Origin: Streptacidiphilus carbonis
GTDB lineage: Bacteria; Actinomycetota; Actinomycetes; Streptomycetales; Streptomycetaceae
Direction: 5' to 3'
Length of the DNA stretch: 64,000 nt
Assembly: GCF_000787775.1 (NCBI RefSeq)
Contig: NZ_BBPM01000001.1
Location: forward strand, 100,207-164,206
The position numbers were made by a program, and so were the translations under genes. This document shows positions 28,042-34,074 of this stretch, one piece after another (position 1 is the stretch's first letter; each line of letters starts with the position of its first letter). The notes under the pieces were generated by a model, which did not search any database, had not been told where the DNA came from, and saw only the letters and a list, made by a program, of their open reading frames with translations.

Positions 28042-29091
28042 GTGTCAAGCCTTTCGCTGCTGGTGCCTGCTGTGCTCGTGGGCTCCGCCGCCGTCCGCGT
28101 CTTCGCGAAGCGCAGCCCGCGCAGTCCGTCCGGACCTGCCGCTGCCGCTGTCGGCGGACCGCGGCCGGTGCCGATCGACCCCAGCTACGGGGATCCGGAG
28201 CTCGCCGCGCTCCGCAAGGCGGTGACCGCGGCGGACTGGCCCGCGACCGAGGCGATCCTGCAGCCCTGCCGGGACCGGGGCGACCACGCCCGGCTGACCT
28301 GGCTGATCAGCGGGGTCGTGGAGATCGGCGGCGACTTCCTGCTCGGGCTGCCCGACCGGCGACCGGACGATCCGCTGGCCCTGACCGCCGCCGGTGCCCG
28401 GCATGTGGCCTGGGCCTGGGAGGCGCGCACCGGCGCCCGTGCCGCCCAGGTGTCCCAGGAGCAGTTCCAGACCTTCCACGAGCGGCTCCGCACCGCTGAG
28501 AAGCACCTCTACGCCGCCGTCGAGGCCGACCCGGGGACGGCCACCCCCTGGCACTCGCTCACGAACTCCGCGCGGGGCCTGCAGCACGGCCACGAGGTGA
28601 CCCGGCGCCGGTTCGAGGCCGGCGTCCGCCGGGCGCCGCACCACTTCGCCCTGCACCTGGCCATGATGCAGCAGTTGTGCGCCAAGTGGAGCGGCTCGCA
28701 CGAGCAGATGCACGACTTCGCCCGGGAGTCACTCGCCAAGGCCCCGCTCGGCAGCAACCTGGGCGCCCTGGTCCCGTACGCGTACCTGGAGCACTGGCTG
28801 GATCTGCCGCAGGGCGAGCGGGCCGGCTTCATCCGTCGGGGCGAGGTCAGGGCCGAACTCAAGGCGGCCGCCGACGCCTCGGTGCTGCACCCGGCGTACG
28901 CGCCCACCGAAACGCCCTGCCTCGCGCTGAACACCTTCGCGATGGCGCTCTGGCTGGCCGGCGATCCGGCCACCGCCGCGGAGCTGTTCCGGCGTCTCGG
29001 CGACCGTCCGACCAGCCTCCCATGGGGCTACGCCGGGAACGCCGGCAAAGTGTTCGCCAGGGCACGGCAGGAATGCAAGAAGGGGAAATAG
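28042..29091 (+). CDS. membrane-anchored helical-repeat protein (DUF4034-like), first gene of HSP90 operon
   Basis: 349 residues. GTG start with GGAGGGG 5 nt upstream. A single N-terminal membrane helix (SLSLLVPAVLVGSAAVRVF) would tether it, with the rest predicted to be TPR-like helices: TAAGARHVAWAWEARTGARA, TFHERLRTAEKHLYAAVEAD, RRAPHHFALHLAMMQQL, CAKWSGSHEQMHDFARESLA. This resembles DUF4034-type proteins seen in streptomycetes. The HSP90-like gene begins 11 nt after its stop. Membrane recruitment of a client or of the chaperone is a possible role, inferred from context. Confidence 0.72.
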   Translation: MSSLSLLVPAVLVGSAAVRVFAKRSPRSPSGPAAAAVGGPRPVPIDPSYGDPELAALRKAVTAADWPATEAILQPCRDRGDHARLTWLISGVVEIGGDFLLGLPDRRPDDPLALTAAGARHVAWAWEARTGARAAQVSQEQFQTFHERLRTAEKHLYAAVEADPGTATPWHSLTNSARGLQHGHEVTRRRFEAGVRRAPHHFALHLAMMQQLCAKWSGSHEQMHDFARESLAKAPLGSNLGALVPYAYLEHWLDLPQGERAGFIRRGEVRAELKAAADASVLHPAYAPTETPCLALNTFAMALWLAGDPATAAELFRRLGDRPTSLPWGYAGNAGKVFARARQECKKGK

Positions 29092-29102
29092 GTACCACTC
29101 CA

Positions 29103-31022
29103 GTGACCACCAACCAGCCGGGCCACACGTTCCAGGTCGATCTGCGCGGCCTCGTCGACCTGCTCTCGCACCACCTCTACTCCTCACCCAAGGTCTATCT
29201 GCGCGAGTTGATGCAGAACGCCGTTGACGCGATCACCGCGCGCCGGCTGCTGGACCCCGCCGCCCCGGCCCGGATCACCATCCGCACCGGGACGGACGGC
29301 GGCATCGTCGTCGAGGACTCCGGCGTCGGGCTCACCGAGTCGGACGTGCACACCTTCCTGGCCACCATCGGCCGCTCCTCCAAGCGCACCGAGGACGGCG
29401 GCATCGACCTGTCCGCCGCGCGGGCCGACTTCATCGGCCAGTTCGGCATCGGGCTGCTCGCCTGCTTCGTGGTCGCCGACGAGATCACCGTGGTGTCCCG
29501 CAGCGCCCGCGAGCCCGGTGCGCCGGCCGTCGAGTGGCACGGCCGCAGCGACGGCACCTATAGCATCCGCACCCTGCCGGCCGGCTCGGTCGCCCAGCCC
29601 GGCACCACCGTGACGCTGACCCCGCGCGGCGACGGCAGCGAGTGGCTGGAGCCGGGCCGGGTGGTCCAACTGGCGCGCCACTTCGGCTCGTTGCTCCGCT
29701 ACCAGGTCGAGGTGGTGGACCGGCACGGCGATGTGGTCCAGGTGAACGACACCCCGCCGGTGTGGGAGCGGCAGTACGGCTCACCCTTCGCCCGCCGCGA
29801 GGCGCTGGCCGCCTACGGGAAGTCCGTCTTCGACTTCACCCCGCTGGACACCATCGACCTGGACATCCCGCTGGTCGGGCTCAAGGGCGTGGCCTTCGTG
29901 CTGCCGACACCGGCCCACCCGACCAAGCGGTCCGGCAACCGGGTGCACCTCAAGGGCATGCTGCTGTCCGACCAGGCCACCGAACTCGTCCCGGACTGGG
30001 CCTTCTTCGTCTCCTGCGTGGTGGACACCACCGGCCTGCGCCCCACCGCCTCGCGCGAGGCGCTGTACGAGGACGAGACCCTGGCCGCGGTCCGCGACGC
30101 GATCGGCGAGCGGATACGGCAGTGGCTGACCGGACTGGCCGCCTCGGACCTGGCCCTGCTGCGACGCTTCCTGGACGTGCACCACCTCGCGGTGAAGGCG
30201 CTGGCCCGGTACGACGACCAGCTGCTGGCGCTGCTGCTGCCGTGGCTGCCGTTCGAGACCACGGACGGCACCGTCAGCCTGGACGAGTTCGCCCGTGCGC
30301 ACCCGGTGGTGCTGGTCACGCAGACCGTCGAGGAGTTCCGGCAGGTCGCGCCGATCGCGGCAGCGGCCGGGCTCGGCGTGGTCAACGGCGGTTACGTCTA
30401 CGACCGGGAGCTGGTGCACCAGCTCCCGCAGGTCCGGCCCGGGGTCACCGTCACCGACCTGGACCCGGAGACCGTCAGCGCGCACCTGGACAGCGTCGAC
30501 CCCGGGGCCGAGCTCGCTGCCGCCCCGTTCCTGGCCCGGGCCCGCGCGGTCGCGGACCGGATGGACACCGATGTGGCGCTGCGCTCCTTCCAGCCGGTGG
30601 GCGTGCCCGCGATGCTGGTGGACAACCGGGAGGCCCGCCACCAGCGGCGGCGTGCCGAACTGTCGTCCGACGCCGATGAGTTGTGGGCCGGGATCCTCGG
30701 CTCGCTCAGCTCGTCGGCGCCGCGGGCTCAGCTGATCCTCAATCACCTCAACCCGCTGATAAGGAAGTTGGTCGAGCTGGCCGGGACGGCCGACGCCCAG
30801 CTGTCCGAGACGGCGATCGAGGCGCTCTACGGTCAGGCGCTGCTGCTCTCCCGGCGGCCGCTGCGGCCGAGCGACCACGCGCTGCTCAACCGCTCCTTCC
30901 TGGGGCTGCTCGAATTCGCGACCCAGGCCGCCGGCAACGGGCCGGTCGGTGGGCCGGGCAATGGGCCAGGCAGTGGGCCGAGCAATGGGCCGAGCAACGG
31001 ACAGGGGAACGTGCCGTCATGA
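29103..31022 (+). CDS. divergent HSP90-family (GHKL) ATPase
   Basis: 639 residues. The HSP90 N-terminal ATPase is clear: ELMQNAVDAI (N-box), DSGVGLTESDV (G1), TIGRSSKR lid segment and GQFGIGLLACFVVADE (G2), all in residues 30-130. The middle domain retains the catalytic-loop signature as PTASREALYEDETL (about 315-330). The usual C-terminal dimerisation domain is not recognisable, and the protein ends in a Gly/Asn/Pro repeat (VGGPGNGPGSGPSNGPSNG). No strong ribosome site precedes the GTG; translation may be coupled to the gene 11 nt upstream. The next gene, a large TPR protein, overlaps as ATGA, recalling the TPR co-chaperones of eukaryotic HSP90. Confidence 0.88.
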   Translation: MTTNQPGHTFQVDLRGLVDLLSHHLYSSPKVYLRELMQNAVDAITARRLLDPAAPARITIRTGTDGGIVVEDSGVGLTESDVHTFLATIGRSSKRTEDGGIDLSAARADFIGQFGIGLLACFVVADEITVVSRSAREPGAPAVEWHGRSDGTYSIRTLPAGSVAQPGTTVTLTPRGDGSEWLEPGRVVQLARHFGSLLRYQVEVVDRHGDVVQVNDTPPVWERQYGSPFARREALAAYGKSVFDFTPLDTIDLDIPLVGLKGVAFVLPTPAHPTKRSGNRVHLKGMLLSDQATELVPDWAFFVSCVVDTTGLRPTASREALYEDETLAAVRDAIGERIRQWLTGLAASDLALLRRFLDVHHLAVKALARYDDQLLALLLPWLPFETTDGTVSLDEFARAHPVVLVTQTVEEFRQVAPIAAAAGLGVVNGGYVYDRELVHQLPQVRPGVTVTDLDPETVSAHLDSVDPGAELAAAPFLARARAVADRMDTDVALRSFQPVGVPAMLVDNREARHQRRRAELSSDADELWAGILGSLSSSAPRAQLILNHLNPLIRKLVELAGTADAQLSETAIEALYGQALLLSRRPLRPSDHALLNRSFLGLLEFATQAAGNGPVGGPGNGPGSGPSNGPSNGQGNVPS

Positions 31023-33997
31023 CCGCACCCACCACGAAGGAAGAGTTCTTCCAGGCCCTGGGCGAGAACCGCGACCGCCCCAAGGGGCGGGCCACCGCCG
31101 CGATCGCCGAGGAACTGGTCGAGGCCGCCGAGGCGTTCGGCGACCCCGAGGTCACCGTGTCGGCGCTGGTGGAGCTGATGGGCGCCTACCACGGCAGTGG
31201 AGAGTCGGTGAAGTACCCGGTCGCCTTCGCCCGGCTGCTGCGGTTGTGGGACGAGAACCCGCAGGCGTTCGACGAGCACGAGACCCATCGGCTGTTCTGG
31301 TTCTTCAAGTGGGTCGGCGCCGGGCTGCTGTCCACGCCGGACGTGCCGCTGGCGTCGATCCGCGGCTGGATCACCGAGATGCGCCGCCGCTACACGGAGG
31401 CGGGCCATGACCTGCAGCCCGTGTACGCCCAGGAGTACTCGCTGGCCCGGCACCTGGACCAGGGCGAGGAGCTGGCCTACGAGCTGTGGGCCACCCGGGG
31501 GCGGAGCCGGTTCAGCGACTGCGCCGCCTGCGAGGCGCGGGACCGCGCGGACCACCACATCCGGAACGGCGCGGACCGGCAGGCGCTGGCGGAGCTGGAG
31601 CCGACCCTGGACGGCCGGCAGGGCTGCGACGAGGAGCCGCACAACAGCCAGGCGCTGGCACTGCTGCCGCTGCTGCGGCTCGGAGAGTTCGACCGGGCGC
31701 GCGCCGCCCACCTCACCGGCTACCGCAAGGTGCGCGGTCAGGAGGCGGAACTCAGCGCGGTCGGCCAGCACCTGGAGTTCTGCGCGCTGACCGGGAACGA
31801 GGCCCGCGGCCTCGAACTGCTGGCGCAGAACCGGGCGTTGTTCGACTTCACCGCTGCTCCGTCCAGCCGGTTGCGTTTCCTCACCGGCGTCGAGGTGCTG
31901 CTGGCCCGGCTGGCGGAGACCGGGCACGGCCAGCTGCCGTGTGCCGGACCGCTGGCGCGGCCGGAGTGGACGGTCGCCCAGATCCGGGAGGAGGTGACCA
32001 GGGAGGCCGATGAGCTGGCGTCGCGCTTCGACGCCCGCAACGGGAACGACGCGGTGTCCGCGCGTCGACGGGAGCGACTGGCCGTCCGGCCGCTGACGGC
32101 GCAGCTCAACCTGGGTGTGCAGACGTCGGCGCCGGCGCAGGCGTCCGCGGACGCAGCGTCCGCGAGGCCGGCGGTGCCGGCGGCTTCGGCCGTCCCGGTC
32201 GAGGTGCCACAGGACTTCGCCGAACTCGTCGCCGAGATCAGGCGGCTGGACCGGACCGGCGACCCCCGTGCGCGGACGCTGTGGGACGCGCTGCTGGACC
32301 GGGTTGCCGCTGCGGATGCGGAGCCGGACGCGGATGCGCTGGACGCGTTGCTGCGCGGCGAGATCGCCTCGGAGCTGGCGCAGCGGGCGTCCAAGGACGA
32401 GGACTGGAACGGCTGCGCGGCCCGGCTGCGCGAGGCCGTGGAGCACTACACCCGGGCCGGTCGCCCGGCTCGGAGCATCGCCTCCGAGTCGCGACTGGCC
32501 TGGTGCGAGGCCACCGGCAAGGACGTCGCCGCAGCCGCGGCTGCGGCGGCCTGGCCGGTCCTCGACGGGCTGCTGGCGCGGATCGGCGCCCTGATCGACG
32601 CTGGGTTCGACACCGCGGAGGAGGAGCGCGAGGCGCTGCTCCGCAGGCTTGTGGTTCGGCAGAGCCGCGTGCTGACGGCGCGTCATGCGCTGCTGCGGAC
32701 CGATGGGCCGGAGCAGCACACCCGTTGGGCCGAGGTGTTCACCGCGGAGGCGCAGACGCTGATCGCCGAGGGTGCGGCCGTGGACCCGCCGACGCACGTG
32801 TCGATGGCCCACGAGATCCTCGCTGAGTTCCAGGCCACCCACGGCGCACCGGTGGAGGGCGAGGCCTCCGCGCGCCGCGCCGTCGCCGTCTTCACCGAGC
32901 AGGGCTGGCCCTGGCGGCTGCACCGGGGCCGGCTGCTGCTGGGCCTCGCCCTCGGCGCCCAGGGGCGGTACGACGAGGCCGTGGGAGAGCTGGAGCGCGG
33001 CCTCGCGGAGGCCACGTCGGACGTCCCTGACGTGGAGTTGACGCCGCTTCACCGGATGCTCGGCAATATGGCGCTGCGGGCGAAGCAGTACCCGACCGCT
33101 GTGCGCGCCTACTCCGAGGCGGCCGCGCGGCTGGACCGCGAGGGTCATGCGCTGCAAGCGCTGGAGGCACGCTGGCAGTTGAGCCGGGCGCTGCGCGCCC
33201 AGGGCTCGACCGGCGACGCGGTGGCCGTGCTGGAGACGCTGCTGGACCCGGTGGGTCCGGCGGCGCCGGACCGGGGCGCTGAACCCGCTGAGCCCTCTGA
33301 GGCAGAGCAGTTGACGGCTCAGATCCGGGTCGACCTGGCCAATGCGCTGCTGCAGTTGGGGGAGCCGCTTGACGCCGCGAAGGAGTTCCTGCAACTGGCC
33401 GACGCCGTCAGCCGTTGGCCCGAGAAGGGGCCGCTGACCTCCGCCGCCTCAGGCGCGGCCGGCGCCCTGGCGCAGGCTGGCAACTGGGACGGCGCCCGGG
33501 CGGCGCTGGAGCGCGCGCTGGCCTCCAACGCCGAGGCGCCGTGCATCCCCGACCTGACCGACACCCTGCGCACCCTCGCCGGCGAGGCGATCGACGCCCG
33601 GGGCGCGGAGGCGGCCGAGGAGGCGCTCGGCTACCTGGACCAGGCCGACCGCCTGCGCGAGGAGTTCGCGGAGGCAGCGGCTGAGCAGTTCGTCAGCGTG
33701 GACGTCGACAGGGCGCAGTGCCTCTTCATCCGCGGCCAGGTGCATGCCTCCGTGGGCAACCCGGACCAGGCGCTGGCAGCGTTCGAGCAGACAGCCGCCG
33801 AGTACGACCGGGCGGGCTATGCCGAGGCGTCGCCCCGGTTCGAGGCGCTGCGCAGGGCCGCGCTGGTGGAGGCCCGGCTGATGGACCGGACCCCGGCAGC
33901 ACGGGACCGCCTGGACCGCGCCGCCGCCGAGGCCGACAAGGCGGGCCTCCCGGAGGCAGCCGCAGCGCTCCGCCGCCAGCGGGACAGCCTGCAGTGA
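31019..33997 (+). CDS. large TPR-repeat protein coupled to the HSP90-like gene
   Basis: 992 residues, almost entirely helical. TPR-like pairs are best seen in the C-terminal half (LLLGLALGAQGRYDEAVGELERGL, HRMLGNMALRAKQYPTAVRA, DLANALLQLGEPLDAAKEF, RGQVHASVGNPDQALAAFEQ). The N-terminal third (SGESVKYPVAFARLL, HRLFWFFKWVGAGLL) is a different helical region ending in a flexible Ala-rich linker (about 360-400). One CxxC (FSDCAACEARD) could bind metal or form a disulfide. It starts inside the stop codon of the HSP90-like gene, so production of the two is coupled. A perfect terminator follows. Co-chaperone or client scaffold is the working hypothesis. Confidence 0.85.
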   Translation: MTAPTTKEEFFQALGENRDRPKGRATAAIAEELVEAAEAFGDPEVTVSALVELMGAYHGSGESVKYPVAFARLLRLWDENPQAFDEHETHRLFWFFKWVGAGLLSTPDVPLASIRGWITEMRRRYTEAGHDLQPVYAQEYSLARHLDQGEELAYELWATRGRSRFSDCAACEARDRADHHIRNGADRQALAELEPTLDGRQGCDEEPHNSQALALLPLLRLGEFDRARAAHLTGYRKVRGQEAELSAVGQHLEFCALTGNEARGLELLAQNRALFDFTAAPSSRLRFLTGVEVLLARLAETGHGQLPCAGPLARPEWTVAQIREEVTREADELASRFDARNGNDAVSARRRERLAVRPLTAQLNLGVQTSAPAQASADAASARPAVPAASAVPVEVPQDFAELVAEIRRLDRTGDPRARTLWDALLDRVAAADAEPDADALDALLRGEIASELAQRASKDEDWNGCAARLREAVEHYTRAGRPARSIASESRLAWCEATGKDVAAAAAAAAWPVLDGLLARIGALIDAGFDTAEEEREALLRRLVVRQSRVLTARHALLRTDGPEQHTRWAEVFTAEAQTLIAEGAAVDPPTHVSMAHEILAEFQATHGAPVEGEASARRAVAVFTEQGWPWRLHRGRLLLGLALGAQGRYDEAVGELERGLAEATSDVPDVELTPLHRMLGNMALRAKQYPTAVRAYSEAAARLDREGHALQALEARWQLSRALRAQGSTGDAVAVLETLLDPVGPAAPDRGAEPAEPSEAEQLTAQIRVDLANALLQLGEPLDAAKEFLQLADAVSRWPEKGPLTSAASGAAGALAQAGNWDGARAALERALASNAEAPCIPDLTDTLRTLAGEAIDARGAEAAEEALGYLDQADRLREEFAEAAAEQFVSVDVDRAQCLFIRGQVHASVGNPDQALAAFEQTAAEYDRAGYAEASPRFEALRRAALVEARLMDRTPAARDRLDRAAAEADKAGLPEAAAALRRQRDSLQ

Positions 33998-34002
33998 CCG
34001 CA

Positions 34003-34042
34003 GACTCCGCCGCGGGGCCCCTGACGGGCCCGCGGCGGAGTC
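34003..34042. terminator. strong terminator after the HSP90/TPR operon
   Basis: GACTCCGCCGCGGGG and its near-perfect complement GCCCGCGGCGGAGTC make a stem of about 15 bp around a 10-nt loop, 6 nt after the TPR stop and 33 nt before the end of the convergent PPOX gene. It can serve both directions. Confidence 0.85.
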
Positions 34043-34074
34043 GTGGTGGTGGTCCTGATGCCCGACCGGTCGGC

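Follow-up and report, generated by a model that had tools for sequence, protein, structure and literature searches.

Locus Organization

In Streptacidiphilus carbonis (assembly GCF_000787775.1; 8.46 Mb in 139 contigs), a stretch of 64,000 nucleotides of contig NZ_BBPM01000001.1 (positions 100,207 to 164,206 of the forward strand; hereafter the window, whose own numbering is used throughout) contains three consecutive genes for a tetratricopeptide repeat (TPR)-like protein, an HSP90-type ATPase and a large TPR protein. This work deals with that unit, and mainly with its second and third genes, for which we put forward with moderate confidence the reading of a dedicated HSP90/co-chaperone pair. 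The features of the locus are the following:

28042..29091, + strand: gene 1, 349 amino acids (aa); all-helical and TPR-like, distantly DUF4034-like
29103..31022, + strand: gene 2, 639 aa; HSP90 of the NF010683 (PRK14083) lineage, N-M-C architecture
31019..33997, + strand: gene 3, 992 aa; N-domain (~1-360) and predicted TPR superhelix (~397-992)
31019..31022, + strand: ATGA overlap between the start of gene 3 and the stop of gene 2, read from the sequence
34003..34042, + strand: strong G+C-rich hairpin 3' of gene 3, from its folding energy; no T-run

The first-pass annotation of this DNA, made from its letters alone, had described three genes with an 11-nt gap between the first two and an ATGA shared by the last two; they were confirmed as forward-strand open reading frames (ORFs) at the coordinates above. 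A purine-rich run is found upstream of each of the three genes; that of gene 3, which is Shine-Dalgarno-like, sits inside the 3' end of the HSP90 gene, immediately before the ATGA.

Conserved Pairing of Genes 2 and 3

Gene-order conservation across actinomycetes, which had been proposed as a check, is clear. The partner (the homologue of gene 3) is the next gene on the same strand in 152 of the 152 fetched loci whose HSP90 has a profile score >600, these being the loci above that line among 175, with 135 distinct HSP90s and the window copy counted twice. The two genes are separated by -14 to 65 nt (the median is 4.5 nt, and 38 gaps are -4), with gene starts assigned by rule, so that individual gaps may be off. 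Among 80 loci picked by HSP90 similarity alone, without regard to the partner, 79 are matched by gene 3 in tblastn, and the eightieth is picked up as well once a profile of residues 1-360 is used. Co-occurrence is equally marked at the level of genomes: a census of 394 genomes of the class Actinomycetes, all from the same draw (HSP90, E <= 1e-90; N-domain, E <= 1e-8), found the HSP90 in 46, the N-domain in 49 and both in 45, with a single genome carrying the HSP90 without an N-domain partner. In a sample restricted to one family (f6), the HSP90 is present in 20 of 201 genomes and the partner adjoins it in 19, the twentieth having another TPR protein next. The pairing of this HSP90 with its partner is thus real, old and unusually strict.

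No such partner was seen beside canonical HtpG. The N-domain profile finds nothing beside 21 distinct canonical HtpGs, for which 0.27-0.87 kb of downstream flank is visible, nor in the 7.2 kb viewed around the htpG of the same genome; and none of six annotated canonical HtpGs from plasmid or phage-collection records has a TPR gene annotated within 3 kb.

Gene 2, a Second HSP90 Lineage

The HSP90-type assignment given to gene 2 from the letters alone proved correct: the protein reaches 851.9 bits on the NCBIfam profile NF010683 ("HSP90 family protein"; cut-off 455) over residues 6-610 of 639. On the HtpG profile NF003555 it scores 194 bits, below the cut-off of 371, which places it outside HtpG. 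A canonical HtpG is also encoded in this genome, as its second HSP90 (31% identical to gene 2) scores 773 bits on HtpG and 186 on NF010683. In trees, the NF010683-type HSP90s form one clade, separate from canonical HtpG.

A C-terminal dimer domain had been reported as not recognisable in gene 2, and this does not hold. Besides the nearly full-length match to NF010683, there is the profile alignment of the gene 2 family with the 21 distinct canonical HtpGs, in which the local match extends across the C-terminal helices (to column 592 of 628), and the dimerisation region is recognisable at the level of sequence. The Gly/Asn/Pro tail noticed earlier is real but not conserved. The ATPase residues are kept across the aligned HSP90s (E35 in 136/136, N39 in 135/136, D72 in 135/136 and R318 in 136/136); we take them to be the equivalents of yeast E33, N37, D79 and R380. 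Because of this full-length homology and the conserved catalytic residues, gene 2 is a conventional ATP-driven, probably dimeric chaperone.

The NF010683 cut-off is exceeded in 31 of 41 relatives and in 10 of 296 phylum genomes, with phyla beyond Actinomycetota sampled unevenly; two control genomes, Corynebacterium glutamicum and Deinobacterium chartae, are also above it. The window HSP90 is 84-89% identical to those of Streptacidiphilus fuscans and Catenulispora(les) and 63-72% identical to those of the other kept loci, and it nests with Catenulispora in the tree, not with most Streptomycetaceae; transfer of the operon HSP90 between orders is therefore likely. One in-frame stop was noticed in the HSP90 match of each of three genomes (G521, G843 and G745), corresponding to pseudogenes or sequencing errors, and in locus L169 (genome G609) the HSP90 match is split across two overlapping frames, the TPR gene being open. 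Two HtpG copies of different groups have been described in S. coelicolor, and Actinobacteria and Firmicutes placed in Groups A and C, by Chen 2006 (PMC1525184); the NF010683 lineage is probably its Group C.

Gene 3, the Helical-Repeat Partner

Described earlier as a 992-residue TPR protein, gene 3 does have TPR matches above Pfam cut-offs. Its predicted structure has a predicted local distance difference test score (pLDDT) of 93.2, and in this model the TPR part resembles LGN (Z 24.2, root-mean-square deviation 4.6, 320 aligned residues) and also Rap proteins (Z up to 19.4); several of the LGN and Rap structures matched were solved with bound peptides or partners, according to their entry titles. 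These structural matches cover mainly residues 397-799 (Foldseek/VIA).

The N-domain has about 360 residues. Nine positions, including positions of an FDxR motif, are invariant in all 31 N-domain rows, Bacillota included (W94, K97, C168, C171, C203, P207, A227, D338 and R340). H231 is kept in 28 of the 31 rows, and a zinc site formed by C168, C171, C203 and H231 is plausible from this pattern. Across loci the partner measures 457-1162 aa (assigned starts), and it diverges faster than the HSP90, the identities to the nearest relative being 65 and 89%, respectively. In Listeria, two N-domain-matching genes (324 and 320 aa) stand in tandem directly after that of the HSP90 (799 bits on NF010683), and the first of them has a TPR_8 match just above cut-off; in Paenibacillus, the HSP90 (715 bits on NF010683) is followed by one N-domain-matching gene; and on a 6.6-kb gut contig the partner lies in an open frame, together with an NF010683-type HSP90 gene (644 bits). 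Since the Bacillota partners are N-domain-sized, the sequences identify the N-domain, and not the long TPR tail, as the core of the partner.

Gene 1, a Later Addition

Gene 1 is found in 68 of the 147 loci with room for it. In a thinned tree of 88 rows it is present in 29/29 rows of one clade and in 0 elsewhere, corresponding to one gain (98). The model of gene 1 is all-helical (pLDDT 88.8, residues 1-31 unreliable), the conserved helical domain starts at about residue 41, and the structural matches are to generic TPR proteins (best Z 14.0). DUF4034 (PF13226) is matched by 3 of 45 gene 1 homologues (best E 3.6e-4), with the window protein unlisted at E 0.1.

The gene had been presented as a membrane-tethered helical-repeat protein. 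The helical model and a hydrophobic N-terminal segment (mean hydropathy 2.01 over 19 residues) agree with that description in the window, but the segment occurs in only 7 of 66 distinct gene 1 homologues, all in the window/Catenulispora clade, which rules out a membrane tether as a general feature of gene 1; short basic N-termini were noticed in other homologues. Because gene 1 was gained once, in one clade, and the hydrophobic segment is rarer still, the form with three genes and a membrane tether is a local variant built upon a two-gene unit. The earlier idea of a candidate chaperone-cochaperone system is retained for genes 2 and 3, whose fixed pairing is strongly supported by their gene order and by their co-occurrence; the three-gene form and the membrane apply in sub-clades only. 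Gene 1 would be a later accessory TPR-like protein, probably anchored in the membrane in the window's own sub-clade.

Proposed Function and Alternative Explanations

It is because of gene order and co-occurrence that we favor genes 2 and 3 as a dedicated HSP90/co-chaperone pair. In such a pair, the N-domain of the partner would dock on this HSP90, its C-terminal LGN/Rap-like TPR superhelix may recruit a client or client peptide, and the tight translational coupling visible in the layout might serve to keep HSP90 and partner in proportion.

The pairing has exceptions, and several observations weigh against this reading. Locus L143, whose HSP90 scores 540 and lies below the 600 line, has no N-domain partner; among the loci under 600 obtained later, L176, L177, L210, L211 and L212 have the partner, and L218 (the same gene as L143) lacks it. 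In genome G457, an HSP90 above the NF010683 cut-off adjoins a TPR gene without N-domain (TPR_8 27.8 bits, cut-off 25.7). The partner occurs without the HSP90 in 4 of the 394 class genomes, these partners being divergent (E 1e-58 to 1e-86). YbjN-family genes, instead of HSP90, adjoin one of these partner-only copies, a second copy in G504 and a copy on an Actinomyces plasmid, and therefore the partner is not exclusive to HSP90. In locus L205 (5025-10379), the TPR partner beside recG has been kept and its HSP90 copy lost, in a genome where another HSP90-TPR pair is present. In Leptospira (L222, 670-6794), an HtpG gene of the canonical family also has a TPR gene near it, two genes ahead. Finally, the same adjacency would be expected if the TPR protein were the client.

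Some details of these loci can be added. Three partners beside YbjN-family (PF10722) genes, in L178 (4316-5607), L202 (7532-8008) and L203 (6900-7260), have no HSP90 in the stretch fetched, as if YbjN took its place there. A gene for a cyclic-nucleotide-binding domain protein lies directly after a divergent partner gene in L204 (7873-11181). In the Leptospira stretch the HtpG-family gene comes last, preceded by two vWA genes, one for a TPR protein and one for BatD; this HSP90 sits on a long branch on the non-HtpG side of the tree, and it was rejected as a member of the non-HtpG lineage with 629 bits on HtpG vs 192 on NF010683.

The best surviving alternative, which we nevertheless regard as unlikely, makes the TPR protein the only dedicated client of the HSP90: a large scaffold of helical repeats, dependent on its own HSP90 for folding or assembly and acting independently afterwards. 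Adjacency and co-occurrence fit it equally well; the variable length of the partner and its faster divergence would also be accommodated, and the orphan partners beside a YbjN-family gene could use another helper. It is disfavored by the nine invariant N-domain positions, which are kept from Actinomycetota to Bacillota, also in partners that lack the long TPR tail, and have the look of a fixed interface, because a mere client need not keep one.

Less probable still is a conflict or defence system, with the HSP90 setting the threshold of an effector. Patchy presence (46/394 class genomes, 10/296 phylum genomes above cut-off) is in its favor, as is a mobilizable S. globosus plasmid carrying all three genes; so is a cyanobacterial plasmid with a related HSP90 that carries a weakly CAP12-TIR-like region as a fusion, in the vicinity of TIR, TPR, vWA and AAA genes. 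However, no effector is found in the window unit and no defence system family among the ten flanking ORFs (searched with Pfam, not PADLOC), and the PADLOC matches, at best 28.1 bits over residues 14-132, reach no further than the shared GHKL ATPase fold, so that neither source supports this explanation for the window unit; one flanking ORF does have an OmdA/YdeI domain, linked in Pfam's description to bacteriocin protection. Furthermore, the Streptomyces loci lacking gene 1 share one recurrent chromosomal neighbourhood, with recG (Pfam-confirmed in L205) and with genes that are, by their sequence signatures, presumably rsmD-like and coaD-like. Co-transcription for regulation only, without joint action, would suit the generic TPR folds and the one TPR gene retained after HSP90 loss in L205, but it is very improbable, as the two genes are inherited together in 45 genomes, with 1 + 4 exceptions, and in Bacillota too, beyond what co-regulation usually preserves.

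Relatives Beyond the Actinomycetes

Outside Actinomycetes and Bacillota, the HSP90s are more distant and their neighbors of other kinds. Those of Xanthomonas, Pseudomonas and Salmonella score 277-293 bits on NF010683, below its cut-off, vs 185-195 on HtpG, and a protein of 764-774 aa is encoded 2-36 nt after them (39-62% mutual identity, n = 3). The N-domain profile does not match the two of these proteins that were tested, and their TPR matches stay below Pfam cut-offs (E 8e-5, 2.5e-4 and 0.007). The Pseudomonas partner gene is presumably PA1069 of the PAO1 map. Under heat shock of P. aeruginosa, htpG goes up (log2 2.8) and PA1069 down (log2 -2.0) in the data set of PMC4957987. The HSP90 of the cyanobacterial plasmid (L220, 5932-9314) scores 383 bits on NF010683 vs 306 on HtpG; its weakly CAP12-TIR-like region is C-terminal, and the TPR gene lies two genes on. 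The gene directly after this HSP90 (232 aa) is 32% identical to the TIR-like region, the TIR gene is upstream, and the vWA and AAA genes are nearby.

A broader, tentative reading would see here a non-HtpG HSP90 branch (Actinomycetota, Bacillota, gammaproteobacteria and, distantly, a cyanobacterium) organised as a whole around dedicated partners made of helical repeats, from two or more unrelated families; bacterial HSP90-TPR co-chaperoning might then have an origin separate from that of eukaryotes, use another docking surface and, in a cyanobacterium, have been coupled to a TIR-like effector. We rate it somewhat below even. Since the gammaproteobacterial and cyanobacterial cases are single records it is only a lead, and its odds were lowered by the removal of Leptospira and by how weakly the gammaproteobacterial partners score for TPRs.

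As for phages, the HSP90 matches 34 phage-collection records; among the three examined, two are bacterial by annotation and the third, the gut contig, is unannotated. One IMG/VR match is 34% identical over residues 17-133.

Surroundings and Regulatory Signals

By Pfam, the ten ORFs flanking the unit on both sides, of which some are overlapping reading frames of the same gene, give an XRE/MmyB-type regulator, a phosphoesterase, the OmdA/YdeI-domain protein and proteins of the PNPOx and CopD kinds; no Pfam family matches four of the ten. The hairpin region after gene 3 (33990-34060; -49.6 kcal/mol, z -5.2) is possibly the end of the operon transcript, and neither a classical terminator nor a sigma-70 promoter was found in the stretch of the window scanned.

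Neither CIRCE nor HAIR was found in 130 operon regions, where no other motif searched for stood out clearly from shuffled sequences. CIRCE-like sites (0-5 mismatches; L099, L101, L102, L103, L105, L106, L107, L109, L111 and L112) occur upstream of htpG in 10 of 21 "canonical" regions, which include one non-canonical locus (L143); all ten are from other classes of the phylum. Within the class of the operon, the seven canonical htpG regions likewise have neither CIRCE (6-9 mismatches) nor HAIR, and the absence of CIRCE was therefore discarded as a contrast between the operon and HtpG.

Comparison With Known Systems

Gene 2 is a member of NF010683/PRK14083, a family whose name says nothing about a partner gene. 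Among the matches listed in open-licence PMC texts, no title, abstract start or passage assigns the HSP90-partner pairing. With canonical HtpG the protein shares the three-domain plan and an end-to-end alignment; it differs in clade and score, and in that no N-domain partner was seen beside HtpG. Results on HtpG are not simply transferable to this second paralogue.

The MoxR-vWA ternary conflict systems (Kaur 2020, PMC7159879) are comparable in combining an ATPase chaperone with a helper, in bacteria with complex lifestyles. They differ from the present unit, as no MoxR, vWA or effector family was found by Pfam in genes 1-3 or the ten flanking ORFs; and "HSP90" occurs 0 times in the main text of that paper.

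Another analogy, already drawn in the first-pass annotation, is that with eukaryotic HSP90 and its TPR co-chaperones of the Hop, FKBP and CHIP type, and it stands for the kinds of parts but not for the docking chemistry. No conserved EEVD-like C-terminal peptide was found on these HSP90s, whose tails vary; the endings RKEx, KEA and RGDV were considered as analogues and rejected, their DNA being the purine-rich, Shine-Dalgarno-like run of the next gene. A three-TPR carboxylate-clamp pattern, with its usual residue spacing, was found in 1 of 102 distinct partners, not the window protein, and in 0 of five shuffled sets. With no EEVD-like tail and no carboxylate clamp, docking would therefore differ from that of eukaryotes, and the partner belongs to another family. 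The pair points to dedicated HSP90 helpers in some bacteria, a trait otherwise associated mainly with eukaryotes, and, being co-inherited and translationally coupled, it offers a two-component system for probing the role of this HSP90, its client and whether TPR co-chaperoning has had more than one origin. The likeness to the eukaryotic systems is that of an HSP90 paired with a TPR protein, here in the genome itself.

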